This document shows, piece after piece, positions 6,574-42,086 of a stretch of 56,087 nucleotides of DNA. Position 1 is the first letter of the stretch; the number at the start of each line of letters is the position of its first letter. The position numbers and the translations under genes were made by a program. This DNA is from a virus, in the IMG/VR virus record IMGVR_UViG_3300022074_000048, positions 1-56,087 of that record. The stretch is one strand, 5' to 3'. The notes beneath the pieces were generated by a model. It saw nothing but the letters and a program-made list of their open reading frames with translations, did not search any database and had not been told where the DNA came from.

Positions 6574-7230
6574 TTAAGTCAATATCCTGGGAACTAATTG
6601 AAGGCTAGTACGGTCTCTATCTTCTGATGCCGCCCTCGCGAACTCTTCGTCATATATAGATTTTAAAACGCTTACTCGATCAGGAGCCACCTTTATAGAT
6701 AAATAATAAGCCAATCCTGCAACTAAACAGGGGTAAAACCTAAAAGGTACATCGAAATCATTTGTGTAAGTATCTGCGTCATCAATTCGAACTAACCGAT
6801 AATAAATAATTTGATCAGTGGAGTTTTCAGGAGTTTGCCATAAATATAAAACAGGATTAACTTGTCGATCAACAAAAAATTGAGAAGGTTTACCAGTGCT
6901 TGTTTTGTTGGGCAGATTTAAATAAGCACTTCGTGATATTCTATCAACGGATGTGTCTGAACCACTCCGGCGTATAACCATCTCTAGAATATCAATAGTA
7001 TCTATTCCGAGTGTATAATTGGCTGTCCCAGCGGTTAGAGTTGTAGTAACTTGTTCAACAGTAAACAAATTAATACCACGATTAGCCCATTCTGCTAACA
7101 TAATATTTAGAGAGCGTCGAGCACTTCTTAAAGAATATCCTGTTTTTCCTTCACCCCCACAACGTTCGTAGGCTTCTTCTATAGCCTCAACAACGTCGAT
7201 ATTAAAATTTCGGGAGTCTGAAACAGCCAT
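6574..7230 (-). CDS. P22 gp4-like head-to-tail joining / DNA stabilisation protein
   Basis: 218 residues. FNIDVVEAIEEAYERCG, LRSARRSLNIMLAEWANRGINLFTVEQ, LTAGTANYTLG, DILEMVIRR and DRISRSAYLNLPNK make up the pattern of the podovirus tail accessory factor (P22 gp4 / packaged-DNA stabilisation protein family), which binds below the portal and closes the filled head. Its length (218) is slightly above P22 gp4's. The order with the adaptor-like gene downstream supports the call. Confidence 0.75.
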   Translation of the reverse strand: MAVSDSRNFNIDVVEAIEEAYERCGGEGKTGYSLRSARRSLNIMLAEWANRGINLFTVEQVTTTLTAGTANYTLGIDTIDILEMVIRRSGSDTSVDRISRSAYLNLPNKTSTGKPSQFFVDRQVNPVLYLWQTPENSTDQIIYYRLVRIDDADTYTNDFDVPFRFYPCLVAGLAYYLSIKVAPDRVSVLKSIYDEEFARAASEDRDRTSLQLVPRILT

Positions 7231-7907
7231 TATTCATCTTTCGCGTAAAGATTATCAAATATCTGATTTACATCCATTGTATAGTCTAAATCTGATTTTG
7301 AATAGTGCGTGTGTTGTGACGGTCTAAAATCAGGTGCACCTTTTCCTGTTTCAAACCACGCAGGGTGCGTAACACGAACACGATTGTTTGGCAAAGCTAC
7401 AATATTTCCTGTCCACTTTCCCGCATCAAGAAGCTCAAGAACATGGCTCTGCTTGTGCTGAGCAGGGTCGTCTGCTATTTCGCTTTCAGTGTAATCTACG
7501 GTAAAATAGTATTTTGCTGGAAAAAACTGACCATCTATTTTAGCAAGCCATGGACAGGGGTGCGCACGATCTAAGCGATACACACTGTGCATATGCGACA
7601 TACAATCCCAAGGTTGCGCGAAATGAACGGGCATAGGTTCAGGCCACGCATCAAAGGGTGTGTCGCCAACAAGTGCCGTTATTGGCATCCTCGCCCACAT
7701 TGCACCCCCATGAATATTAGCGTCCTCTGTATTGTCAACCTCAAAACCAGTAAACAACATCTGAAAACTTAAACAACGACTAGGCATTGTTGTTACTGCA
7801 ATAGCCATAGCGTGTAAAAATTCACCATGGTATTTTGCATGGTTATGCGTGTATTCTCTACGCACCCAGCATTTAAAGTGCGTAATATTGCTTTGTAAAT
7901 AAGGCAA
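7230..7907 (-). CDS. Hypothetical virion-region protein, conserved-type
   Basis: 225 residues, rich in Trp, His, Met and Phe. It reads HFKCWVRREYTHNHAKYHGEFLHAMAIAV at the start and contains HGGAMWARMPITALVG, WDCMSHMHSVYRLDR and FFPAKYYFTVDYTESEIADDP. It resembles a conserved protein I associate with marine phages next to tail-tube/connector genes, of unknown function. The shared 7230 base couples it to the gp4-like gene, so a role in connector assembly is likely but unproven. Confidence 0.68.
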   Translation of the reverse strand: MPYLQSNITHFKCWVRREYTHNHAKYHGEFLHAMAIAVTTMPSRCLSFQMLFTGFEVDNTEDANIHGGAMWARMPITALVGDTPFDAWPEPMPVHFAQPWDCMSHMHSVYRLDRAHPCPWLAKIDGQFFPAKYYFTVDYTESEIADDPAQHKQSHVLELLDAGKWTGNIVALPNNRVRVTHPAWFETGKGAPDFRPSQHTHYSKSDLDYTMDVNQIFDNLYAKDE

Positions 7908-21317: not shown

Positions 21318-21668
21318 TTAGCCAGCAATCAGCATGTCAGCGTCAATCAGCTTCTTGCGGTAAAAGGTCAAGATACGCTCGGGTGTCTGAGTAGTCGACA
21401 GCGAGCTTTCTTTCGAGGCCAACGCATCCAGCAGCTCGCGAGTAGTCGCCGCACCACCAAGTTTATCCAGCTCGAACAAAATCGCCTGTGCTTGCGCGGG
21501 CATAGGATTAGCAGCCAGCAACTCAGCCGCATTTTCAGCAAGACGCAGCTTTACGTTATTGCGTCCTTTAGCAGACGGTGCAGGGATACCGCAACGCGCA
21601 ACTGACTTTGGGTTAACAGTAGGTGTTACAGTCGCACCATTCGAAGTAGGCTTGGAAATTTTAGTCAT
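21318..21668 (-). CDS. Winged-helix-like small protein, paralogue 1
   Basis: 116 residues from MTKISKPTSNG; the ATG follows AAAGGA. A disordered basic start is followed by NNVKLRLAENAAELLAANPMPAQAQAILFELDKLGGAATTRELLDAL and a C-terminal TTQTPERILTFYRKKLIDADMLI. The pattern helix, G-G-x-A-T/I-T, helix, Q-T-P-x-R-I-x-T-F-Y-R-K, I-x-x-G/A is shared with the proteins at 21992-22402 and, more distantly, 34329-34739. It is consistent with a winged helix in which TFYRKKL is the recognition helix. A 12-bp palindrome lies 66 bp upstream. Likely a DNA-binding regulator. Confidence 0.68.
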   Translation of the reverse strand: MTKISKPTSNGATVTPTVNPKSVARCGIPAPSAKGRNNVKLRLAENAAELLAANPMPAQAQAILFELDKLGGAATTRELLDALASKESSLSTTQTPERILTFYRKKLIDADMLIAG

Positions 21669-21733
21669 AACTTTCGTCCTTTCTAAATGAGAGAGCCAAC
21701 CCCTCTCGACAAGAATGATCATATGAGATGTTC

Positions 21734-21991: not shown

Positions 21992-22402
21992 TTAGGCGTA
22001 GGTGATGAATCCATCTTCCATCAAATCTTTGCGATAGAATGTGTAGATCCGCTTCGGAGTTTGAACAGTCGCGAGACCGTTCTCGATCAGACCGTCAACG
22101 ATCTGCTGCTGAGTGGCAGTGCCGCCCAAAGCCTCGAGCGTGTCGAGAATGATCCCCGCCTGTTTTGGCAGCTTGCGGTTTTCGATAGTCTTGGTCAGAA
22201 GCTTGACCTTACGACCGTCGAAACCCTTGGGAGCTGGAGCAGGAATACCAGAGTTACCAGCTGGATCGACAACCTTCAATGCTGCTTTCGCAGCACCACG
22301 AGCACCCATGCTAGGTGCGAGCAGAGAGATAGGATCGGTCTTCTTGGTGACGGTCTTCTTAGCCTTTGTGGAAGTGGCCTTCTTCTGTGTTGCTGCAGTC
22401 AT
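21992..22402 (-). CDS. Winged-helix-like small protein, paralogue 2
   Basis: 136 residues. A Lys/Thr-rich disordered tail (1-22) is followed by RGAAKAALKVVDPAGNSGIPAPAPKG, VKLLTKTIENRKLPKQAGIILDTLEALGGTATQQQIVDGLIENG and TVQTPKRIYTFYRKDLMEDGFITYA. It matches paralogue 1 in order and motifs (GIPAPxxKG, KL.......AGI/AI, L-G-G-T/A-A-T, Q-T-P-x-R-I-x-T-F-Y-R-K). The ATG follows AGGAGAAATGAT. Upstream are a TTTACT-17-TATATT promoter and palindromes. Probably a DNA-binding regulator; its target is unknown. Confidence 0.7.
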   Translation of the reverse strand: MTAATQKKATSTKAKKTVTKKTDPISLLAPSMGARGAAKAALKVVDPAGNSGIPAPAPKGFDGRKVKLLTKTIENRKLPKQAGIILDTLEALGGTATQQQIVDGLIENGLATVQTPKRIYTFYRKDLMEDGFITYA

Positions 22403-26540: not shown

Positions 26541-26629
26541 TGGTGCGAACGGTGGGACTCGAACCCACACGACCCGTGTCTGTCGACGGATTTTAAGTCC
26601 GTTGCGTCTACCAATTCCGCCACGCTCGC
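26541..26629 (-). tRNA. tRNA-Leu (anticodon UAA)
   Basis: 89 nt including an encoded CCA. The acceptor GCGAGCG pairs with CGTTCGC (one G-U). The D-arm has GGCGGAATTGGTAGACGC, the anticodon stem ACGGA-TCCGT carries the loop CTTAAAA (anticodon UAA, reads UUA), a long class II variable arm follows, and the T-arm has GTGGGTTCGAGTCCCAC. It lacks obvious defects. Phage tRNAs usually compensate for codons rare in the host; here UUA is implied. Confidence 0.95.
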
Positions 26630-28820: not shown

Positions 28821-29189
28821 CTACTCGTTGTAATATTCTTTACCGCTCGTTATCCACGCTTCAACTTCATCGTCAGTCATGCTGTCGAAGTCCGGTTCGA
28901 CACGGTGAAGAGGCATTGGTTTACGTTTCTTTTTAGGTTTCGGAGCGGCAGTTAATGTTCCCGCTGTATACCCGTTACGGTGTGTTTGTTTCTTTGCTCC
29001 GTAAGAAATAATTTTTTCTTCTGTATGGATTAATAACCCGCATCGTTTACATTTACGTCGACGTCTTAGAATTTCCCCGTCTTTTCTACTATCAACAACA
29101 GTAGTCATCTCAAACGTATGCGTTTTACACGGGTTGGGTTGAGTAAGCTGACTCGTCACCCCTCGTCCACCCTCTTGTGCTTTCGGCAT
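28821..29189 (-). CDS. NrdR-like zinc-ribbon protein without ATP-cone
   Basis: 122 residues. PCKTHTFEMTTVVDSRKDGEILRRRRKCKRCGLLIHTEEKI aligns with the N-terminal zinc ribbon of NrdR (D-S-R ... I-R-R-R-R-x-C-x-x-C ... T-x-E). Cellular NrdR continues with an ATP-cone; here a basic linker (KPKKKRKPMPLHRVEP) and an acidic helix follow instead. The first Cys pair is reduced to a single Cys. The start at 29189 has AAAGGTGAT upstream and overlaps the polymerase by 65 nt. Perhaps a transcription regulator. Confidence 0.6.
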   Translation of the reverse strand: MPKAQEGGRGVTSQLTQPNPCKTHTFEMTTVVDSRKDGEILRRRRKCKRCGLLIHTEEKIISYGAKKQTHRNGYTAGTLTAAPKPKKKRKPMPLHRVEPDFDSMTDDEVEAWITSGKEYYNE

Positions 29190-31131
29190 GTTTTATCACC
29201 TTTTCCATTTCTTTTGCGTCACCCCAGTTCGGTCCTAAATCAACATCCACTTTGATCGGTACACTAAGTTCAACGCACTCCTCCATAATATCTTTGATCT
29301 TTTTGATTTGTTCAGGTGACTCGATTGAAAAATCAAGTTCGTCGTGAACTTGAATATGAGGAACGATACCCTCAGCGTATAACGACTGCATTGCTTTTTT
29401 AGTCATATCAGCCGCACTACCTTGAATCAGCCTATTCATGGCCTTATGAGTAAATGCTCTTTTGATTGCGTTGCCGTATTCTGCGTATGCCGTCTTATGG
29501 TCCATAATTTTTCGTGTGCCAAATTGAGCTGGTTCCCATTTATCAAATCGACACCGCCGTCCTAAGAGCGTACGAATACTTCCTTGTTTTGAAGCCCTCT
29601 GTACTGCCCGTTCGGATAGAGCTTTTACAAAAGGAACACGGTCGTGGTATTGAGAAAATAACTGTTTACCTTCATCTAGTGTCAGCCCGAGACTGTCGGA
29701 TAACTTCGTAACCCCCATAGAATAAAATAACCCGAGGTTGATATTCTTAGCTTGTTTACGCGGTATACCGGCCATGTCCGCTACGATCTGGTGGAAGTCG
29801 GCATCGTCCTGTTGAAAGGCGTCTACGGCGTCCTGTGCGCCCCTAAGACCCATCATATGGGCGTAGTGTACCACGATCCGTGGTTCCTGTTGCGAGTAGT
29901 CGAAAGCCCCCCATTGGCACCCTTCTTCAGGAATAAATAACGAACGAATTTTTGTTCCTATCTCCGGATCACGGGCGGGTACTTGCTGAAGATTCGGATT
30001 AGAATAACTAAAGCGTCCTGTTACCGTACCACCGTCATCTGAGCGCAAAGGATGTAATTCAGCGTGAATACGACCATCCACTTGGTTAGACATTATCATT
30101 CCGTCAATGAATGTAGTCCGCGCTTTATTCATCTTCCGCGCTTCTACAATCAACTTAGGCATATCGTGTTTATGAGATTCTAGCCAACTTTGTTGAAAAG
30201 AAGGAGAGCCAAGATCGGTTCGGGGGTATTCTATATTCAACCCATCAAATGCTTCCTGGATAGATTTATTAGCCCATACTTCAACGTTTTTGCCACAAAG
30301 TTTTTTTATTTGTTGAAGAGAGGCTTCTTCTTTAGCTCGAAACCATTTAGAGAGTTCATCAGCTTTATCTAAGTCTACTCGTACCCCGCGCCAACGCATC
30401 TCAATAAGTAGAGGCGTAATAGAAGATTCAAGATCAAAGATACTCCATAAGTCTTGCCGAGTCATTTCTCCCTTTTGCCATTCCCAAAGTTTAAGGGTAA
30501 GCAAAGCGTCTTGTTCTGCGTATGGACCTACATACATGGGGGGTAATTGATGTAACCCCCCTTTCGCATCGACATTCCAAGCTTCAGCGGCATCGCGCAA
30601 AAGGGACTCATCTTTTCTTTCTTGAAGATAGCTTTTACCAAGCGCATTAAGAGCATAACTAAACCTGTTTTCATCAATCAAAGGGGCAGACACCATTGTG
30701 TCAATGAGTTTGTTGCCGGACAAGGTAATACCCTCTCTGCGCATCCACCCAATATCATAGGAAGCGTTATGGCAAACGATATCAGCACCACCGTCGATTT
30801 GTGCTTGTAACCAATTTTTAACGAGCTTTTCATTTAAGTTGCCTCCGGCTTCATGTTTAACAGGTAAATAACCTGACCAAGATTCCGTAGCTACCGCGTA
30901 CCCTACAACGTGGCCTTCACCTCGCGCCCAACCTGCACCCTTCTCCTTTAGGGAAGGGTCTCGAGTTTCTAAGTCAATACATATTTCTTTAGCTTTGGTT
31001 AAGTCGGGAAGAACTTCTGGTGGTGTCCAATCACTATCAGGGGTAAAAAGAGGTTGTTGAATCGGGTTTTTTGGCATAGCTGGCTTCTTATCAGGTTTTA
31101 TCTGATTAGAGCTTACTATGTTATTAGTCAT
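29125..31131 (-). CDS. polA: Family A DNA polymerase with 3'-5' exonuclease
   Basis: 668 residues from MTNNIVSSNQ. The ATG at 31131 overlaps the preceding stop. The proofreading domain is intact: DLET (about 53-56), N-x-x-x-D (CHNASYDIGW) and Y-A-E-Q-D. Polymerase motifs: A (AFDYSQQEPR, about 409-418), B/O-helix (RKQAKNINLGLFY, 458-470), C (VHDELDF). The residue equivalent to E. coli Phe762 is Leu (residue 466), a variant known from phage PolA. There is no DnaJ-like insertion of the kind reported for phage HMO-2011. It replicates the phage genome. Confidence 0.95.
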   Translation of the reverse strand: MTNNIVSSNQIKPDKKPAMPKNPIQQPLFTPDSDWTPPEVLPDLTKAKEICIDLETRDPSLKEKGAGWARGEGHVVGYAVATESWSGYLPVKHEAGGNLNEKLVKNWLQAQIDGGADIVCHNASYDIGWMRREGITLSGNKLIDTMVSAPLIDENRFSYALNALGKSYLQERKDESLLRDAAEAWNVDAKGGLHQLPPMYVGPYAEQDALLTLKLWEWQKGEMTRQDLWSIFDLESSITPLLIEMRWRGVRVDLDKADELSKWFRAKEEASLQQIKKLCGKNVEVWANKSIQEAFDGLNIEYPRTDLGSPSFQQSWLESHKHDMPKLIVEARKMNKARTTFIDGMIMSNQVDGRIHAELHPLRSDDGGTVTGRFSYSNPNLQQVPARDPEIGTKIRSLFIPEEGCQWGAFDYSQQEPRIVVHYAHMMGLRGAQDAVDAFQQDDADFHQIVADMAGIPRKQAKNINLGLFYSMGVTKLSDSLGLTLDEGKQLFSQYHDRVPFVKALSERAVQRASKQGSIRTLLGRRCRFDKWEPAQFGTRKIMDHKTAYAEYGNAIKRAFTHKAMNRLIQGSAADMTKKAMQSLYAEGIVPHIQVHDELDFSIESPEQIKKIKDIMEECVELSVPIKVDVDLGPNWGDAKEMEKVIKHAESTRGWTRGDESAYSTQPV

Positions 31132-31516
31132 CTTGACTACCCCTACCGCACATCTCAGCGTCAATAAGAAACAAGTAACGACGCAAGTCTCGGATATCGT
31201 CCAGGATACCTTCAGGGCGTCTGTCCTCGTCCATAGCTGAGAAAATATCGTAGCTATGCCCTAGAACCTGTTTTTCGATACGATCCCATTTACGAGCCGC
31301 CATCATAAAGGCACCCACACCGCCGCGCTGTTTCCAACTATCGCCATAAGACTGCTCAGCTTTATGAAGCTCGTCGGCATCCTCTATACCAAGACACATA
31401 ACCCGATTAATAATCGCGCTCCGAGGCTCATCGGTAGCGTAGTTCGCACCCTCTAACAGTTTACGCTTCATAAACTCCTCATGGCGTTCTTGTTCTATTT
31501 CTTTCTTTCTAGCCAT
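31124..31516 (-). CDS. DUF1599 / Nmad1-like nucleotide-modification-associated protein
   Basis: 130 residues from MARKKEIEQERHEEFMKRK. The ATG at 31516 follows an AAAGG site; an in-frame TTG seven codons upstream is less likely. The pattern SYGDSWKQRGGVGAF (56-70), AARKWDRIEKQV (73-84) and DDIRDLRRYLFLI (106-118) fits DUF1599 ('nucleotide modification associated domain 1'). Such proteins accompany modified-base pathways; their reaction is unproven. It sits between the polymerase and the ThyA-fold gene, with coding overlaps on both sides. Confidence 0.62.
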   Translation of the reverse strand: MARKKEIEQERHEEFMKRKLLEGANYATDEPRSAIINRVMCLGIEDADELHKAEQSYGDSWKQRGGVGAFMMAARKWDRIEKQVLGHSYDIFSAMDEDRRPEGILDDIRDLRRYLFLIDAEMCGRGSQDD

Positions 31517-32538
31517 TCTACACAAGCCTTTCTCCAATCTGACGCTTCTATTTCACGAGCTTTATCAATAGCCTCGTTAATCATTTGTTCTTTCCAGAGC
31601 CACCACGCTTCGACCATAGGTATTGCAGTCTTCGGAAAGATTTGGTTTTGGTATCCCAAAAAGGACTCACCCTTGTGGAGCCAATCGAAGAAGAGACAGA
31701 CTTCAACGTCGAACTCTTCCCATTTATCGACGAGCGGGACGGGTTGAAGCCCATACGCTTCATAAGGGTCTGGATGAATCCCTTGGGGAAGTTTTTCATC
31801 GAGTGGCCTCCATACATCTAAATATACATGAGGGTTATTGCTGACTTGATAATAACGTCCAAGCCCCATTCCCATACAGCTGGCTAGATATTCATGAACC
31901 ATACTAAAGTGCACAGCGTTCGCACCGTACATACCCCAGATTAGATCATTGGATCTATTCGTTACAGTCATGTCTAAATAATATTTATTCTGACGTTCCT
32001 GAGGAGGACGGGTTTTATCTCCGAAATACTCACCCCAATGGGCAACCGGACGACCGCGTAAGAAAACTTGTGTATTGCACGGAACGTCCTTAGATGAAGA
32101 ACCAAGGTCTTGGGTACAATCCCACATCTGAAGTACGGCGCGACGGTCTAATGGGTTCTTACGCAATAAGTCGATAACGGTAGATAATTGGTCGCGCCCA
32201 AACCATTCAGTCCAGCGGTAGCCATACGCACCGTTTACTAAAACACCATCATCCGAAAAGTCCGCCATCTTCTTAGCGAACATCGTTAGCGTTTTTAGAT
32301 CTTGCCGACCCGCGATCATCCACAGCCCTTCGATAAAATGAAAGAAGGGGTTACAGTTACGTTCCGCACTAAACAGAACACGCTCATTCGGTCTTTCGTA
32401 AATAGTCGTAAGTGGTGTCGGAAACGACAACACAGGACCATTGCGGGAGTCTGTCTCTAAAAGAGCTTGGTCTTCTCGCAAGTTCATAACAGCTACTTGA
32501 AATACCTCGTTGACATTTACACCGCGTATTACTTTCAT
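31495..32538 (-). CDS. ThyA-fold pyrimidine C5-methylating/hydroxymethylating enzyme (predicted dUMP hydroxymethylase)
   Basis: 347 residues, thymidylate-synthase fold: YGYRWTEWFGRDQL, PLDRRAVLQMWD (phosphate-binding Arg132-133), catalytic Cys154 in VPCNTQVFL, and TNRSNDLIWGMYGANAVHF. Asn207 corresponds to the uracil-recognising Asn of ThyA; dCMP hydroxymethylases have Asp. Cys154 is followed by Asn instead of the His of canonical ThyA, and an extra loop of about 18 residues (164-182) is inserted. Neighbours argue for 5-hydroxymethyl-dUMP production. Plain thymidylate synthase is the alternative. Confidence 0.78.
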   Translation of the reverse strand: MKVIRGVNVNEVFQVAVMNLREDQALLETDSRNGPVLSFPTPLTTIYERPNERVLFSAERNCNPFFHFIEGLWMIAGRQDLKTLTMFAKKMADFSDDGVLVNGAYGYRWTEWFGRDQLSTVIDLLRKNPLDRRAVLQMWDCTQDLGSSSKDVPCNTQVFLRGRPVAHWGEYFGDKTRPPQERQNKYYLDMTVTNRSNDLIWGMYGANAVHFSMVHEYLASCMGMGLGRYYQVSNNPHVYLDVWRPLDEKLPQGIHPDPYEAYGLQPVPLVDKWEEFDVEVCLFFDWLHKGESFLGYQNQIFPKTAIPMVEAWWLWKEQMINEAIDKAREIEASDWRKACVEWLERKK

Positions 32539-33362
32539 GGATATCTCCCTCGTGGTGCGCCTTCTCCGTTACGCACTCGTTCGTATTTATCAAACTCGCA
32601 AAGACTATGTTCGATATCCCGCATTTCTAATTTAGGCAAAAAATCTTTTGTTAAATGCAAGGGAGACATACTTAATAAGTCTCTCATTTCTGAATTAAAA
32701 TTATGTTTACGACTTTTAAAGTTCAGGGGTCTACCGTGTATACGGTTCAAGCCTCGCATGGCTCCAGGACCAGCATTAGCCCAAGTATAAATATCATCGG
32801 CTGAATGCAATAAATGTGTATGACGTAAATCAGTAATTAATTCATATGACATAAACGCTCCTAGGTACGGAAATTGCATAAACAAGTTCCAAGAACCACG
32901 GAGGTTGTTCGAACGGATATCATTGGCGAGTTGTTCGCGTTGGGGCCAGATACGGTTTACGCACCAAATCACCCCATCGACTTTATCCATCCCGTCAGGA
33001 GTTTTAATTATGTACCCACCCGTTACATATTTAGATTGCTTTTTGATTTCTTCCCGAGCAACCTCTGGGTTCCAATCTATATGTAAATTATTAGCGAGAA
33101 GAGTTTCACCTGTTTGGATAAGATTAAACCAACGAAAAATAACAGTTGCCATAAGAACAGCATCGTTATCTTTCAAAGGGTCGCGCATATTTTCCCTAAA
33201 CCAAACGGTGGTCTTGTCGTTCTCTCTAAAGGGATTAGTAAAGCGATAGGTCTTTAAAATCTCATCATCTGTCCACTGCTGGCGGGAGAGGCCCATATTC
33301 TTCTTTAGAAAAATACGATGCCTCTCCTCCATCCACCAAAAGAACCTTTCTATTGGTTCCAT
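32535..33362 (-). CDS. DNA base hypermodification protein (5-hmdU kinase helical-domain / aGPT-pyrophosphorylase family)
   Basis: 275 residues. The start RFFWWMEERHRIFLKKNMG, then WTDDEILKTYRFTNPFRENDKTTVWF (30-55), LGAFMSYELITDLRHT (167-182) and GPGAMRGLNRIHGR (198-211) are the conserved blocks of the family linked to hypermodified thymine (5-hmdU DNA kinase helical domain / alpha-glutamyl- or putrescinyl-thymine pyrophosphorylase clade). In characterised phages such proteins act on 5-hmdU within DNA. No P-loop kinase domain is fused here. Overlaps the ThyA-fold gene by 4 nt. Confidence 0.82.
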   Translation of the reverse strand: MEPIERFFWWMEERHRIFLKKNMGLSRQQWTDDEILKTYRFTNPFRENDKTTVWFRENMRDPLKDNDAVLMATVIFRWFNLIQTGETLLANNLHIDWNPEVAREEIKKQSKYVTGGYIIKTPDGMDKVDGVIWCVNRIWPQREQLANDIRSNNLRGSWNLFMQFPYLGAFMSYELITDLRHTHLLHSADDIYTWANAGPGAMRGLNRIHGRPLNFKSRKHNFNSEMRDLLSMSPLHLTKDFLPKLEMRDIEHSLCEFDKYERVRNGEGAPRGRYP

Positions 33363-34201
33363 TACTTCTTCCTCATAATCCAGTTTACATTATTAGCTGT
33401 TTCTGGATACGCAGTTGCGAGGATTACACGTTGCCAATGTTTATCAAACCGTCCCTCGATATCATCAATAACGTGTTGAGGCCAACGTAAATTAGCGCGG
33501 TGATTACCCTTAAAGTTATTCATTTGGGTAAACGTTCCGTAATGTTTTTCGATAACGAAATACTTTTCGAGGAGTTCTTTGAGTTCTTCATACCCCCATT
33601 CGTAGATGTGGTCTTTTGGCAGAATGTCGTTAGACCCATCGTGGTTCGGCGTCGAGACATACGCAATGCCGTTTGAACGGATTTTACGTGCGGCGGCTTC
33701 GATCCATGGCTCAATAAACTCTCTCCCCATGTGTTCAATAACTTCAGTTGTCATAAAAACATCTATCGACTCGTCTTCTATGGGGGGCTCAGGATCAATA
33801 GTTAAGTCCTGTAAAACGATACGACCTTTATTACCTGACATAGTTTGAAACCATTTATGTTCTGTAACGGGTAAATCGTCGTCCACCCACCAATCTTCTA
33901 AACAAGCAGGATCAATATCCATACCCGTATAGCTATTAACAATCTCAGCCTTACGAGAGACAAAGGCTTTATAGAGATAGCGCAATGTCCAAACTTCCCC
34001 GCAACCTATTTCAAGTATATCTACAGGTCGATCAAGTTTTTTAGCACGTTCCATAATCAGCTGACCCATTTTACAAAAACGACTGATGTGCGCCAGCTCA
34101 TCAGGTCGCCAGTTAGCCAGCGTACCCGCTGAAGCAATGTCCATACGGGTGTTCTTAGAATTATTCGCGTTTACCGCGAGTTTACGACGAATAGATGCCA
34201 T
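33362..34201 (-). CDS. Class I SAM-dependent methyltransferase (type 11/12-like)
   Basis: 279 residues. Motif I DILEIGCGE (61-69), motif II acidic YTGMDID (91-97), D132 region VLQDLTIDPE, and post-motif DVFMTTEVIEHMG (147-159). It lacks the D/N-P-P-Y of adenine/cytosine DNA methylases. A C-terminal extension of about 70 residues (YFVIEKHYGTFTQMNNFKGN...) is uncharacterised. One-base overlap with the hypermodification gene suggests it methylates a precursor or the modified thymidine; this is inference. AGGAG ribosome-binding site. Confidence 0.78.
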   Translation of the reverse strand: MASIRRKLAVNANNSKNTRMDIASAGTLANWRPDELAHISRFCKMGQLIMERAKKLDRPVDILEIGCGEVWTLRYLYKAFVSRKAEIVNSYTGMDIDPACLEDWWVDDDLPVTEHKWFQTMSGNKGRIVLQDLTIDPEPPIEDESIDVFMTTEVIEHMGREFIEPWIEAAARKIRSNGIAYVSTPNHDGSNDILPKDHIYEWGYEELKELLEKYFVIEKHYGTFTQMNNFKGNHRANLRWPQHVIDDIEGRFDKHWQRVILATAYPETANNVNWIMRKK

Positions 34202-34328: not shown

Positions 34329-34739
34329 CTAGCTAAGAATACGAATGTATCCTTTGTCGACCATCTCACGATGATAGTGTTTATAAACGCGATCTACAGA
34401 CTGTTTAGACACGAGCTTTCCTTCAAGCTTTTCCCAAAACATACCGATAGTAATCCCGCCTTCAAACACTTCTAGCTCCTCTAAAATATGAAGCATCTGT
34501 TTTGGACCTTTATCTGGATACTTAACAAACTCGATCTTCGCGCCGACTTTTAAACGACCCGTAAGGCTACGACCCGCTTCAGCTTTTTTTACTTCCGCGA
34601 TAACTTCAGGTTCCATTATCTTCTTTCCTTTGTGATATTCAGAAGGCCATTTATTACGAGGCCACGTTTTTTGCTCACCAAAGTCATGATCAGGAGACCA
34701 CATCCATCCGTCTGACGATGTTTGAATCCAGCCGCCCAT
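34329..34739 (-). CDS. Winged-helix-like protein, paralogue 3
   Basis: 136 residues. The N-terminus is Trp-rich (GGWIQTSSDGWMWSPDHDFGEQKTWPRN). The C-terminal 60 residues, GPKQMLHILEELEVFEGGITIGMFWEKLEGKLVSKQSVDRVYKHYHREMVDKGYIRIL, align in layout with the two paralogues at 21318 and 21992 (helix, G-G-x-x-T, helix, Q-x-x-x-R-V/I-x-x-F/H-Y-R/H-x-x-M/L-x-D-G-x-I). GGAGG precedes the ATG. It has a TTATTTTGAG box and an AT-rich palindrome-like site upstream and lies at the head of the modification island. Confidence 0.62.
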   Translation of the reverse strand: MGGWIQTSSDGWMWSPDHDFGEQKTWPRNKWPSEYHKGKKIMEPEVIAEVKKAEAGRSLTGRLKVGAKIEFVKYPDKGPKQMLHILEELEVFEGGITIGMFWEKLEGKLVSKQSVDRVYKHYHREMVDKGYIRILS

Positions 34740-34807: not shown

Positions 34808-36313
34808 CTATATCGGGAAATATTTATTGCTCATCGGCTGTACGATATGCAAGTTTTTCTTTGCTCTAGTAAGGCCAACATAAAAGACGCGGGTGTCGTC
34901 GTCAGGATTTTTTTCAAAACTTTTCCATGTACGGTGAGGAATATCAGTAAGGAGTAAAACGTTGTCTGCCTCCCCACCCTTGGCTGAATGTATTGTAGAG
35001 AGATTTATACGAGGCTTCTTAGTGATTTTTTCGCCGCGACGTAAAATAGAAAGAATATAACTGCGCTCTTGAACTGATATAGCATCGAACATATCGTGCC
35101 ATATCTTTGGTTCGCTTAACTCTGCTATTTCTAAGACTTGCGAAAGCGTGAACCTCTGCGTTGGCTCGAAAGTGTCAAAAACCTTCTTCTTCGCGCTCTT
35201 AATATACGCAACAGCTGATAATGCGTCTTCTGGGTATGCAAGATCGCCACGTCTTAATCGCTCCCAAGCTTGAACAGAGGCAACCTTTTTATCAGAGATA
35301 GAAGGGTCGCCTTTACGCTCGAAATATACCCCAAGATTTCTACAATGGGCATCAATCTCATTTAATAAATAATTAGACCGCGATAAGATTAACCATTCAC
35401 CCGTAGATAGGTCCACATGCTCGAAACTTGCTTCGCTGATAACCTGTCCTTCCTCATGCCGAGGGTTCCAAGTTTTATCTGTTCGTGTCTTAACACGGCG
35501 TATAATGCTGTCAGCTACCCGATGAACACTGCGAGGGATGCGGTAACTTTGATCCAAGACACGAGCGTTACCTTTGCTTATCCCTACCAGATGATCTACA
35601 TCTGCCCCTGCCCATCTAAAAATAGCTTGATCGTCATCTCCGGCAATATAGACACGTTGAGAGTTCTCTGCCAACAATTCTACTAGACGCCATTGTAGAG
35701 GGCTGAGATCTTGCGCCTCATCTACAAACATAACATCTAATTTAGGGGACAACTGTTTTTGAACACACAGATCTAACATATCTGTAAAATCATGTAAGCC
35801 CCTTGAATCTTTAAACTGCTTTAACCCTTTTTGAAATCGTTCTAACGCAAACCAGTCGATATCTTCATCATAATGATCGTGCCACTGTTGTCGTAAAGGC
35901 ACACAGCGTAATCGGGATAAACCTTCAATAAAACTCAGGCGGTCGTCTTTCGATAAAAGAGATATTGCACCTTCCTCAAGTTTATTAGAACCTGTAAGCC
36001 GTAAACCCATCAGATCGTTAAACTCATGAAGTGTTTGTCCATTTAAGACAGAGCTTCTGGACAAACCTAACATACGGTGGCATAAAGAATGAAGCGTTCG
36101 GAAATTAGGCAACTCTTTTTGAGTTAGACCAAAACGCTCCATAGTCCTTTCGCGCCCTTCTTCTGATGCTTTTTTAGTAAATGCGAAATAACCTATGCGG
36201 TCAGGGTGTGTACCTCGCTCCATTTCTAGTTCAATTAAATTCAGAATTGTTGTCGTTTTGCCTGTTCCAGGAGGGCCAAGGATAATAGACCACGTGCTTG
36301 AGTCTCTCATCAA
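34808..36313 (-). CDS. SF1 (UvrD/Rep-like) DNA helicase
   Basis: 501 residues. Motif I GPPGTGKTT (13-21), Ia YFAFTKKASEEG, II VMFVDEAQDLSPLQWRL, III AGDDDQAIFRWAGA, IV LDQSYRIPRSVH, V LSTIHSAKGGEADNVLL, VI RVFYVGLTRAKKNLHIV. It is a compact Rep-type helicase (cellular UvrD is about 720 residues), as in T4 Dda-size phage helicases. It overlaps the primase gene by 4 nt, implying joint action at the replication fork. No hexameric helicase was found elsewhere. Confidence 0.92.
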   Translation of the reverse strand: MMRDSSTWSIILGPPGTGKTTTILNLIELEMERGTHPDRIGYFAFTKKASEEGRERTMERFGLTQKELPNFRTLHSLCHRMLGLSRSSVLNGQTLHEFNDLMGLRLTGSNKLEEGAISLLSKDDRLSFIEGLSRLRCVPLRQQWHDHYDEDIDWFALERFQKGLKQFKDSRGLHDFTDMLDLCVQKQLSPKLDVMFVDEAQDLSPLQWRLVELLAENSQRVYIAGDDDQAIFRWAGADVDHLVGISKGNARVLDQSYRIPRSVHRVADSIIRRVKTRTDKTWNPRHEEGQVISEASFEHVDLSTGEWLILSRSNYLLNEIDAHCRNLGVYFERKGDPSISDKKVASVQAWERLRRGDLAYPEDALSAVAYIKSAKKKVFDTFEPTQRFTLSQVLEIAELSEPKIWHDMFDAISVQERSYILSILRRGEKITKKPRINLSTIHSAKGGEADNVLLLTDIPHRTWKSFEKNPDDDTRVFYVGLTRAKKNLHIVQPMSNKYFPI

Positions 36314-37848
36314 AAAGGCTCCTCTTTCATATCCGGTAAATCAAAACTTCCTTCTTGTGCAGAAAACTCTGGTATATACCAAACAGTAACGCCCTTGCCT
36401 TTTACGTGAAAGAAATGGTGGCCCCCGCCTAGCTCACGAATCCGTGCCGCTATATTATTACGACCGTAATCACGAAACTGCTGGCGACTAAAATAATCTA
36501 ATAAATCTTTCAAACGGAAATGAGTTTTACCCTCTTCTGTCCAAGGTTTACCCAATAATAATTCATCGCGGCTTTGAGCTTGCGCTCGTTCAGTGCAAAA
36601 CGCTTCTAGTAGTTCCATAAACTGGCCTTCTACTGAAACGTCTTTTGGAACCTCAATTACAGAAACAGCGTCCAATAACTGCTGTATTATATTTCTCCAA
36701 TTATTCTGCCTTTGCGTTGGTGGCATAAAATTAAGCGCATCCATACAACGCCGTTGGAACTTGGTTTGATTTTGTAATTCCTCTGTAGTTAATTCTAAAC
36801 GATGACCCTCAACATCAAGAAACCAGATCGGAGGTTGAGAATCCTGTTTTTGAAGATTACCAAACTGAGGCATACCGCCTGAACTACCTACACCATACTC
36901 ACATGTTCGACAAACAGCAGAGTTACAAAACGCGGCTATAGGCTGATCATTACATTTGTAGTGATAATCCTTATTATTTAGAGCGCGGATAACTGTTAAG
37001 ACTTCTTGCGCACCTAACGGGGGTTTCATAAACTTGAAGTTAAATTCTTCAACCTTACGTTCCCATGTATCCTGGAACTTTTTACGAACAAAAACCCCTA
37101 GATCAAACAGCCCATTATTACGAGTACCTTCTGGAAAGCCCATTGTACAAAGAGCTTTTAAACAAGGTGGTGCACCTTCAAGATCTGGATCAGTCTCAGC
37201 GTCGTTAACAGCTTTAGCTGTTAAATTTTCTAACTCTCGTCGAGTAATCATTTTACTCTTAACGTGAGCTATAAATTCTTCTAAATCTAAGATGCCTTCG
37301 CCTTGGTCGTTATGACAATACCTTGTCGATGTATTACCACCGAAGTACGGCATATTTAAAATATTACCGCGATCCCCTTTTTCTAAGAGGAGCTTCGTTT
37401 GCTTTGGAAATATCTCAGCTGTTCCATAACCAAGAGCTGATGCTATTTCTTTTAACTTACCCTGCATAACAGAAGCGGGTACTGGCTCTTTTACAAAACA
37501 ATAAACATGTGCTCCGCCCGATTTAGAGCGAGCAACAACAAAAGGTAACTCATTTCGTCGAACTAACCGTTCAACAAGTTCATCAAGTTTTAAGGGGTAA
37601 ACATCAATATCTATTGCCCCCCATACGCAAGAATTATCCTCACGAATAGGAACAATGCCAACCGACTCTTTTCCCTCTAAATGATTAGTCCATAATTCTA
37701 TTAATTTTTCATCGCTTATATCTTCCGATATAACTCGATATTGACCTTTTTGTTTTCCTGGACCGTTATCTTCATTTGGGCGATAACAACCATAAGCTAG
37801 TCTTAAACCAGCAAATAACTGAGCAAAATTTTGGGCAAGGGTACTCAT
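36310..37848 (-). CDS. Archaeo-eukaryotic-type primase (TOTE-system-like AEP)
   Basis: 512 residues. Catalytic D-x-D in WGAIDIDVYP (Asp80, Asp82), the SGGAHVYCF block with catalytic-site His (110-118), and LLLEKGDRGNILNMPYFGG are the AEP pattern, closest to TOTE-conflict-type primases. A PriCT-like helical part follows (about 225-300), then a four-Cys zinc cluster AAFCNSAVCRTCEYG. The C-terminal 150 residues (ending ELGGGHHFFHVKGKGVTVWYIPE) resemble a winged-helix primer-end domain. Primes replication. Confidence 0.82.
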   Translation of the reverse strand: MSTLAQNFAQLFAGLRLAYGCYRPNEDNGPGKQKGQYRVISEDISDEKLIELWTNHLEGKESVGIVPIREDNSCVWGAIDIDVYPLKLDELVERLVRRNELPFVVARSKSGGAHVYCFVKEPVPASVMQGKLKEIASALGYGTAEIFPKQTKLLLEKGDRGNILNMPYFGGNTSTRYCHNDQGEGILDLEEFIAHVKSKMITRRELENLTAKAVNDAETDPDLEGAPPCLKALCTMGFPEGTRNNGLFDLGVFVRKKFQDTWERKVEEFNFKFMKPPLGAQEVLTVIRALNNKDYHYKCNDQPIAAFCNSAVCRTCEYGVGSSGGMPQFGNLQKQDSQPPIWFLDVEGHRLELTTEELQNQTKFQRRCMDALNFMPPTQRQNNWRNIIQQLLDAVSVIEVPKDVSVEGQFMELLEAFCTERAQAQSRDELLLGKPWTEEGKTHFRLKDLLDYFSRQQFRDYGRNNIAARIRELGGGHHFFHVKGKGVTVWYIPEFSAQEGSFDLPDMKEEPF

Positions 37849-39761: not shown

Positions 39762-40352
39762 TTATGAGAACGATAAGCCGTCGCGGGGTGAAATCGCCTT
39801 TTGAGAAAAATTATCTGCTAGATATTCATTATAGGCGTCGATATAGCGGATAACATTAGCCCGTACCTTCTTTTCCAAAACTTCAATATCCACAGCGATT
39901 TTATCCCGTATGTTTATGTAAACGTCAGCCAAGAGCCAGTTGCCCATGTACATTTGTTCTAAGCAATAAAACAAAAGCTCGATACGATCTGCTATTTTTA
40001 TATAAAGATTTTCACGCCCCCAAGAGGGGACTCCCCCGTGTTCAGATTTCCAACCCATATCTTTCAAAAAACTTTTTTCACGCTCCTCAAGAGCTTTTTC
40101 TAGATCCGGATTAGCCCACTTTACATTAGCAGGTATATCACCTGTAACAACTTCAGGAATATCATGGCGAAGCGCAAACACTAAACCGTCCTTTGATATA
40201 TCTGGAAATAAGTCTAAGAGGATCATAGACAGCCCCCAAGTGTGGGCGGCTACATTTTGCTCTTCTCCGTTCACAGGACGAATGTGCAAACGCCGTATGC
40301 GTCCTGCCATTCGCGTATTATATATTTTCTCGGAAAGAGAGTATTGGCCCAT
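39762..40352 (-). CDS. HD-domain nucleotide phosphohydrolase (YfbR-like)
   Basis: 196 residues. His37 in NVAAHTWG, the HD pair in FALRHDIPEVVTGDIPANVKW (His63-Asp64, Glu67, Asp72) and a later Asp in IKIADRIELLFY form the metal site of 5'-deoxyribonucleotidase YfbR-type HD proteins. It probably dephosphorylates dNMPs (for example to remove an unwanted nucleotide in a modified-base phage). The last nine codons coincide with bracket element A. Ribosome-binding site AAAGGA; AT-rich divergent promoter region upstream. Confidence 0.8.
   Translation of the reverse strand: MGQYSLSEKIYNTRMAGRIRRLHIRPVNGEEQNVAAHTWGLSMILLDLFPDISKDGLVFALRHDIPEVVTGDIPANVKWANPDLEKALEEREKSFLKDMGWKSEHGGVPSWGRENLYIKIADRIELLFYCLEQMYMGNWLLADVYINIRDKIAVDIEVLEKKVRANVIRYIDAYNEYLADNFSQKAISPRDGLSFS
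39767..39786 (+). repeat. Bracket element A, right copy
   Basis: AGAACGATAAGCCGTCGCGG on the plus strand, identical to 23635-23654 on the minus strand (20/20). Here it lies within the HD gene's final codons, 62 bp outside element B. Confidence 0.93.
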
Positions 40353-40425: not shown

Positions 40426-41874
40426 ATGAATTTTAAATTTAAGACCAAACCATATAAGCACCAGCTAAAAGCATTAGAGATTTCTTACCTGAAGAAATCG
40501 TTTGCGCTTCTTATGGATATGGGAACGGGTAAATCAAAAGTTCTTATTGATACGATCGCGTATCTTGACGCAACTGATGAAATTAATTCTGTTTTAATCC
40601 TTGCTCCAAAGGGTGTTTATAAAAACTGGGTCGGTAAAGAAATACCAGCACACTTGCCAGACAGCATTGAACATAAAGTTGCGTATTGGGCTTCGCCGTT
40701 AACCAATAAACATAAAGACGCTATCCGCGATATTTGGCGACCAAATAAATACTTGCATATTTTTGTAATGAATATTGAAGCCTTATCCACAGGCAAAGCA
40801 GAAGAAGTCGCGACTAAATTTATTGCGGCACACGGCGGTTCGACTCTTATTGCTATTGATGAATCCACAGTTATAAAGAACCACAAAGCTCGAAGAAGCA
40901 AGGCGGCAATGAGGTTGTCTAAGCGGTGTAAATATAAACGAATCCTTACAGGGTCTCCCATTACAAAAACACCACTTGATTTGTTTTCGCAGTTTCAATT
41001 TTTAGGAGAAGAATTATTAGGCTTTAAGTCGTATTATGCTTTTTGCGCTCGTTACGCAGACATGATAAAACGTAGTGCGTCTGGAGGTGGTCATCAATAT
41101 AATCAGATACTTGGTTTTAGAAATCTTGACGAACTTACTGAATCAATAAAGCCGCACTCGTACCGCGTTACGAAAGAAGAGTGTCTCGACCTACCTGAAA
41201 AAACTTATACAATGCGAACGATAGAGCTAACTTCAGAACAAAAGAACCTGTACGACCAAATGAAAAAGACCGCTGTAACTTTGTTAGACGACATGGAAAT
41301 GGTTACAGCTAATGCAGTTATTACTCAACTATTGCGTTTACATCAAATTAGTTGTGGTTTTATTAATACGGATGACGGTAATGTGGTTGAAATTAAAAAC
41401 AATCGCATGTCCGAATTACTTGCGATCTTAGAAGAACTAAACGGGAAAGCTATTATTTGGGCTAACTATCGACACGATATCCTGGCTATCAAAAACGAAA
41501 TATCGAAAGTTTATGGACCAAGATCTGTTGCTACTTATTTTGGCGACACTGATGGCGAAGAAAGACAAAATATTGTAGATCGTTTCCAAGAGGACGAAGA
41601 ACTACGCTTTTTTGTTGGACAACCTCGCACAGGTGGGTACGGTTTGACTTTAACCGCTGCATCAACAGTAATATATTATAGTAACAGCTATGATCTTGAA
41701 GTAAGGTTACAATCAGAAGATCGTGCGCACAGAATCGGTCAATCTAATGCGGTTACATACATCGACTTAATCGCGCAAAAAACGGTAGACGAAAAAATAG
41801 TCGGTGCACTTCGGAAGAAGATTAACATCGCAACACAGGTATTAGAAGAAGATTGGAAAAAATGGCTGATTTAA
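40426..41874 (+). CDS. SNF2-family DEAD/H-box helicase/ATPase
   Basis: 482 residues. LLMDMGTGKSKVLID (Walker A), LIAIDESTVIKN (DESx in place of DEAH), ILTGSPITKTPLDLFSQFQFL, and in lobe 2 AIIWANYRHDI, FVGQPRTGGYGLTLTAASTVIYYS, LEVRLQSEDRAHRIGQSNAVTYIDLIAQKTVDEKI (motif VI). It is a compact SNF2-like ATPase as found in many phages, remodelling protein-DNA complexes or acting in replication/recombination. It is one of only two genes on the plus strand. AGGGG ribosome-binding site. Confidence 0.92.
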   Translation: MNFKFKTKPYKHQLKALEISYLKKSFALLMDMGTGKSKVLIDTIAYLDATDEINSVLILAPKGVYKNWVGKEIPAHLPDSIEHKVAYWASPLTNKHKDAIRDIWRPNKYLHIFVMNIEALSTGKAEEVATKFIAAHGGSTLIAIDESTVIKNHKARRSKAAMRLSKRCKYKRILTGSPITKTPLDLFSQFQFLGEELLGFKSYYAFCARYADMIKRSASGGGHQYNQILGFRNLDELTESIKPHSYRVTKEECLDLPEKTYTMRTIELTSEQKNLYDQMKKTAVTLLDDMEMVTANAVITQLLRLHQISCGFINTDDGNVVEIKNNRMSELLAILEELNGKAIIWANYRHDILAIKNEISKVYGPRSVATYFGDTDGEERQNIVDRFQEDEELRFFVGQPRTGGYGLTLTAASTVIYYSNSYDLEVRLQSEDRAHRIGQSNAVTYIDLIAQKTVDEKIVGALRKKINIATQVLEEDWKKWLI

Positions 41875-42086
41875 TTCAAGAATTCAAAGAACTACGAAAA
41901 CAATCGGGGCTGTCTCAAAAAGACGTATCGGAAGACACAGGCGTAAGTTTGATTACAGTGTACACGTGGGAAGCTAAACAACGACAACCCACCTTGTCTA
42001 ATTTCAATAAAGTGTTAAACAAGATGGGTTATGAAGTTACTATCCAACCGCTCGCATCCGTTGAACAAGACGTTCAGCACGGTTAG
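41862..42086 (+). CDS. Small XRE-family HTH regulator
   Basis: 74 residues from MADLIQEFKELRKQSG; the ATG lies 13 nt before the end of the SNF2 gene. GLSQKDVSEDTGVSLITVYTWEAKQRQPTLSNFNKVLNKMGYEVTI is a complete helix-turn-helix of the XRE/Cro type (helices about 18-45). It is co-transcribed with the SNF2 gene and overlaps the lysozyme gene tail-to-tail by 47 nt. No partner repressor or integrase was found. Target sites are unknown; the bracket elements are candidates. Confidence 0.82.
   Translation: MADLIQEFKELRKQSGLSQKDVSEDTGVSLITVYTWEAKQRQPTLSNFNKVLNKMGYEVTIQPLASVEQDVQHG

Follow-up and report, generated by a model that had tools for sequence, protein, structure and literature searches.

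The window analysed here, positions 1-56,087 of IMG/VR virus record IMGVR_UViG_3300022074_000048, carries a four-gene island in which a class I S-adenosylmethionine (SAM) methyltransferase (hereafter MT) takes the place that a kinase or a glycosyltransferase occupies elsewhere as the exclusive partner of the HMUDK_hel protein, a pattern that we observe in 98 distinct loci. The MT-bearing module is well supported. As for its chemistry, which is predicted, we lean modestly towards thymine hypermodification by a branch that needs no kinase: HMUDK_hel would present 5-hydroxymethyluracil (5hmU) in DNA and MT would O-methylate it, giving 5-methoxymethyl-2'-deoxyuridine. The island consists of the following genes:

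33362..34201, minus strand: MT, 279 aa; Pfam Methyltransf_23, 2.5e-9; predicted 5hmU O-methyltransferase.
32535..33362, minus strand: HMUDK_hel protein, 275 aa; PF18723, 4.2e-42; predicted HhH-GPD DNA-glycosylase-like fold.
31495..32538, minus strand: ThyA-fold enzyme, 347 aa; PF00303, 1.1e-15; predicted dUMP hydroxymethylase.
31124..31537, minus strand: conserved 137-aa protein of an unnamed family; motif YGDSWK.RGGVGAFMMLARKWDRIE...DDIRDLRRYL.

A sequence-only reading of this DNA had placed four overlapping open reading frames between the family A DNA polymerase (PolA) and the helicase and primase genes, and all four are present there. Successive overlaps, counted from MT to the 137-aa gene, measure 1 nt, 4 nt and at most 43 nt, the first being the single base at 33362, shared with the HMUDK_hel gene, by which that reading had joined the methyltransferase to the operon. 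Since dozens of phage contigs have this gene order and show strong purifying selection (for MT, window against relatives, a nonsynonymous rate of 0.07-0.10 and a synonymous rate >1), the reading frames are not products of chance and the island is real. The ThyA fold and the class I methyltransferase fold proposed from the letters alone are both borne out by Pfam. The 275-aa protein, which had been named '5-hmdU-kinase-helical / aGPT-pyrophosphorylase', matches PF18723 at 144.9 bits against a gathering cut-off of 25 (residues 5-266; model positions 5-277 of 281); the first half of that name stands, while aGPT is a historical label for HMUDK_hel itself and the amino acid:DNA transferase family ADDT (PF18724) is absent.

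The partner pattern can be traced across phages. IMG/VR was scanned with HMUDK_hel and with MT, well over 100 loci were fetched, and once identical HMUDK_hel proteins had been discarded and a nearby ThyA-type gene was required, 166 distinct loci remained. MT is present in 98 of these, a kinase in 28 (20 with ADDT) and a glycosyltransferase in 26, counts that are not frequencies in nature because retrieval favoured the relatives of the window. The exclusivity is independent of this bias, and the three pairwise co-occurrences are 0, 0 and 0. When whole records were searched, MT was found in 16/16 expected records and in 0/30 others. HMUDK_hel and then ThyA come directly after MT in all 70 of the distinct MT genes whose locus is long enough to tell (72 in total), with the one-base overlap in 41 of the 70, and the same module recurs in dozens of marine phage contigs. 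Where both kinase and MT are missing, the accessory genes encode TAGT glycosyltransferases, radical-SAM/SPASM proteins, or an FkbM methyltransferase together with a GT-B glycosyltransferase. On the HMUDK_hel tree, the kinase label requires at least 4 changes and the TAGT label at least 6, and partners have therefore been exchanged repeatedly; the MT label requires 2, which leaves room for a single origin.

Two of these kinase-less groups are of separate interest. In loci L036-L045, HMUDK_hel is accompanied by an FkbM methyltransferase and a GT-B glycosyltransferase of 445 aa, a gene content which suggests a methylated-sugar 5hmU. In L032-L035, L040 and L066-L068, radical-SAM/SPASM proteins stand with uncharacterised 320-346-aa proteins without a Pfam match, and these loci are a possible further partner class.

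The sequence-only reading had seen no P-loop kinase, pyridoxal phosphate (PLP) or radical-SAM gene, and several searches agree. BLAST with phage M6 and PaMx11 proteins found in the window no homologue of their kinase, ADDT, PLP, radical-SAM or flavin adenine dinucleotide (FAD) enzymes or acetyltransferase; profiles for the kinase (PF18748), ADDT (PF18724) and TAGT glycosyltransferase (PF20691) gave no match there; and a Walker-A scan for a kinase hidden elsewhere in the window returned the P-loop of the UvrD helicase as its sole credible site. Nor was a glycosyltransferase, an ADDT or a radical-SAM enzyme found elsewhere in the window, or any homologue of the accessory enzymes that HMUDK_hel has at other loci. 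Beyond the window, whole-record searches with PF18748 gave 0 matches in 36 + 16 MT records (controls: M6 and ViI positive, PaMx11 weak), and in the same 36 records both TAGT and ADDT were at 0, the ADDT controls M6, PaMx11 and ViI all being positive. Because the Pfam model scores PaMx11 gp49 poorly, a home-made kinase profile was built, and it had 0 matches in 122 MT loci. A fusion of HMUDK_hel to a kinase was also considered in phage PhiW-14, where HMUDK_hel was found and PF18748 gave no match, and the idea was dropped.

What MT might do to its substrate is suggested by its conserved site. MT, the METHYLTRANSFERASE of the island, contains neither a [DNS]PP[YFW] (DPPY-type) nor a Pro-Cys (PC) motif and so lacks the signatures of DNA base N6, N4 and C5 methyltransferases; carboxymethylation of the CmoA/CmoX type was discarded, as no CmoA model in NCBIfam matches at E<0.1. 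The profile of the MT family matches the Hen1 chains 4xcx, 5wy0, 3jwg, 4xrp and 3jwi in the PDB (E 1.5e-5 to 5.5e-4), in an alignment that runs through E-x-x-E-H, STPN and DHxxEW, and the quartet E153, E156, H157 and H198, aligned to the Hen1 chains, is invariant in 97/97 members. In true Hen1, two Glu and two His bind a metal that activates a hydroxyl. MT carries a Hen1-like site of this metal-dependent O-methyltransferase kind, the metal itself being predicted from the residues. With Hen1/HENMT1 it has in common the ExxEH, the downstream DHxxEW histidine, the STPN motif and the class I SAM fold; it differs in the conserved blocks at its N and C termini, which are its own, and in belonging to a DNA-modification operon.

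HMUDK_hel appears to be the constant element around which such partners change. Its AlphaFold2 model is confident (predicted local distance difference test, pLDDT, 95). A sequence search of the PDB found no relative, and fold comparison alone gave matches, the best being 8-oxoguanine DNA glycosylases and PaMx11 gp46 (a 5-phosphomethyl-dU glycinyltransferase); these matches are weak (E 0.08-0.7, probability 0.84-0.99), yet they fall consistently into one fold class. A conserved polar core (R14, D33, R46, D49, R77, D178, C255, E256, K259, Y260) and a GPG hairpin are shared by the phage proteins of every partner class and by standalone relatives of cellular origin. As HMUDK_hel is constantly paired with ThyA-type enzymes while the catalytic partner changes, a role in handling 5hmU is indicated, and the simplest view, judging from the model, is that it would be a base-flipping module for 5hmU in DNA that serves different catalytic partners, with room left for an enzymatic role of its own. 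Distant relatives, mostly of ~20-29% identity, occur in archaea, Patescibacteria and Alphaproteobacteria (L196, L198-L258); they keep the polar core, mostly have no recognised hypermodification partner nearby, and are possibly 5hmU glycosylases or defence proteins.

On the reading that we favour, the ThyA-fold enzyme would turn dUMP into 5-hydroxymethyl-dUMP, as its family and residues indicate, and this would be raised to the triphosphate and put into DNA by the phage PolA. HMUDK_hel would then recognise, and probably flip, 5hmU in DNA, and MT, occupying the position that in other loci belongs to the 5-hydroxymethyldeoxyuridine (5-hmdU) kinase or a glycosyltransferase, would O-methylate the hydroxymethyl group with SAM, using a metal at E153/E156/H157/H198, to yield 5-methoxymethyl-2'-deoxyuridine. 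The short, kinase-less pathway with a possibly methylated product that had been proposed from the DNA letters gains support from the partner exclusivity and from the Hen1-like site, the modified base itself being a prediction; substrate, product, metal and the physical contact between HMUDK_hel and MT are likewise what we infer.

Several observations weigh against this reading. The top PDB profile match of MT is 2p8j, which is without the quartet; E-x-x-E-H occurs commonly among class I methyltransferases and by itself does not reveal the substrate; generic small-molecule methyltransferases are numerous among the Foldseek matches; and the AlphaFold2 model of MT is mediocre (pLDDT 72.7). Taken alone, the fold matches of HMUDK_hel fall short of significance. 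For many loci the query was MT or the window's HMUDK_hel, which biases class frequencies, and public contigs may be fragments. Finally, the distant relatives of MT in phage AXL3 and its like stand in genomes without HMUDK_hel, so that free nucleotides may be substrates of the family as well.

These relatives, full-length and ~27-30% identical to MT, lie a few genes from a ThyA-type gene in PW916, AXL3 and ctUtU524. The relative in Stenotrophomonas phage AXL3 (29% identity) has the same quartet, although there the ThyA-type enzyme, as in PW916 and ctUtU524, has the dCMP-type (cytosine-type) Asp where the window has the dUMP-type Asn. AXL3 DNA resisted 35/37 restriction enzymes, and the two that cut have A/T-only sites (PMC7504290), which fits cytosine modification. 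One MT family near both uracil-type and cytosine-type ThyA enzymes suggests that the feature modified may be their common hydroxymethyl group. The same genomes also speak for an unlikely alternative, that MT acts on free 5-hydroxymethyl-dUMP or -dUTP, that methoxymethyl-dUTP is incorporated directly and that HMUDK_hel has another job, for there the MT relatives sit among nucleotide-pool genes (NTP pyrophosphohydrolase, a thymidylate kinase-like gene in AXL3, dCMP deaminase and the ThyA-type enzyme). However, HMUDK_hel directly follows MT in every testable marine case, the partners that MT replaces, glycosyltransferases and the 5-hmdU DNA kinase, are of kinds known to work on DNA, and the closest characterised relatives by motif, the Hen1 enzymes, act on nucleic acid.

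To a similarly small degree we credit the possibility that MT methylates a group, such as a carboxylate or an amine, first placed on 5hmU by HMUDK_hel or by an unrecognised enzyme, with a methyl ester or methylamine, in place of a plain methyl ether, as the product. The polar core, present in partner-bearing and standalone HMUDK_hel alike, may be catalytic, and the fold resembles that of the gp46 glycinyltransferase; but the known glycinyltransferase step uses 5-phosphomethyl-dU, as the name of entry 8z2m states, and the MT records yielded neither a kinase nor an ADDT.

That the ThyA-fold protein makes plain dTMP, leaving the DNA unmodified and HMUDK_hel and MT to do something else, is improbable. 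Sequence alone cannot separate a thymidylate synthase from a dUMP hydroxymethylase, as the PhiW-14 paper warns (PMC5977210). Yet the window enzyme groups with M6 gp58 and the PaMx11 protein (47% and 44% identical), it scores far under the cut-offs for canonical thymidylate synthase, and a ThyA-type gene accompanies HMUDK_hel in phage loci of every partner class. It has the catalytic Cys of the PCN motif and the dUMP-type Asn (GANAVHFS), and by the Asn/Asp logic for uracil- and cytosine-type enzymes (PMC5175136) this Asn is that of a uracil-type enzyme; the protein is predicted to be a dUMP hydroxymethylase. About as improbable is an RNA 2'-O-methyltransferase that, like true Hen1, protects or repairs tRNA fragments from an incidental place in the operon. 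Of the named functional relatives in the PDB, Hen1 is indeed the nearest, but the scan of window genes recognised no repair partner of the Pnkp type, and MT invariably adjoins HMUDK_hel and ThyA, never the alternative partners.

The fourth gene of the island did not keep the name first given to it. The 137-aa protein had been read as DUF1599/Nmad1, but it has no Pfam match (E<1), and neither it nor 7 relatives matches DUF1599, so that assignment is rejected in favour of an unnamed family with a strong conserved core. In Brevibacterium phage LuckyBarnes, the ThyA protein (L125:2753-4306) has a C-terminal extension weakly similar to it (37% over 38 aa), a possible fusion that would link the family to hydroxymethylation. 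Around the island lie the following genes:

29125..31164, minus strand: PolA, 679 aa; PF00476, 7.9e-66; downstream, in the same gene run.
34329..34739, minus strand: 136-aa protein between MT and the helicase; no Pfam or PHROG match.
34808..36313, minus strand: UvrD-like helicase, upstream flank; PF00580, 7.1e-32.
36310..37848, minus strand: TOTE-type AEP primase, upstream flank; PF22548, 1.2e-13.
39762..40352, minus strand: HD-domain 5'-deoxynucleotidase-like protein; PF12917, 3.2e-12; M6 gp59 by BLAST, 77 bits.

PolA always comes after the module in relatives, and the 136-aa protein is kept in the closest MT loci and missing from many others. The HD-domain protein, related to M6 gp59 and PaMx11 gp52, is a possible nucleotide-pool accessory. 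Elsewhere in the window, an SNF2-type helicase and a small helix-turn-helix-like gene occupy the plus strand at 40426-42086, nearly all other genes being on the minus strand; a protein at 7230-7907, beside SU10-type adaptor genes, matches a ferredoxin-annotated PHROG (phrog_3704, 3e-27); two adjacent small reading frames (21318-21722 and 21992-22402), paralogous by eye, have GIPAP.KG and TPxRIxTFYRKxL motifs in common; and there is one tRNA-Leu(TAA) gene at 26541-26629.

Among described systems, M6 and PaMx11 resemble the window in that HMUDK_hel lies close to a ThyA-type enzyme in the vicinity of PolA, and in having a related HD phosphohydrolase. In M6 the neighbours of HMUDK_hel are a P-loop 5-hmdU DNA kinase (gp54, PF18748), ADDT (gp51, PF18724), a PLP enzyme and a radical-SAM enzyme, and in PaMx11 a kinase, ADDT, an FAD enzyme and an acetyltransferase, whereas the window is without kinase, ADDT and tailoring enzymes and has the Hen1-like MT in the kinase position. 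LuckyBarnes also has a kinase-less HMUDK_hel module with a ThyA-type enzyme, but its partners are two TAGT glycosyltransferases (PF20691). HTVC023P-type pelagiphages, marine podoviruses with thymidylate synthase and aG/PT-PPlase1 near PolA (PMC9599517), probably belong to the same group as the window or a neighbouring one; the main text of that paper is without the word methyltransferase, and a third partner and its exclusivity are not described there. A literature search that did not reach Lee 2018, Lee 2022 or Wen 2024 found no paper joining 5-methoxymethyl, deoxyuridine and bacteriophage, and no methoxymethyl base in phage DNA; the MT combination may already figure in the metagenome survey of those papers.

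Thymine hypermodification of the known M6/PaMx11 type proceeds via phosphorylated 5hmU and the attachment of amino acids, and what we describe here appears to be a third, mutually exclusive branch. In its broadest form the proposal is more tentative, and we stop somewhat short of endorsing it: marine phages may replace part of their thymine with 5-methoxymethyluracil by means of a repurposed Hen1-like, RNA-type 2'-O-methyltransferase, and HMUDK_hel would be a general 5hmU-presenting module whose kinase, glycosyltransferase and methyltransferase partners have been swapped repeatedly. This predicts a DNA base that is apparently undescribed, a Hen1-like enzyme whose target is such a base, and, for a protein whose present name ties it to a kinase, a general role. 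If true, the base may be common in the sea, the chemistry to be expected could be told from the gene beside HMUDK_hel in a genome, and the enzymes of these modules could serve to tag 5hmU in DNA.

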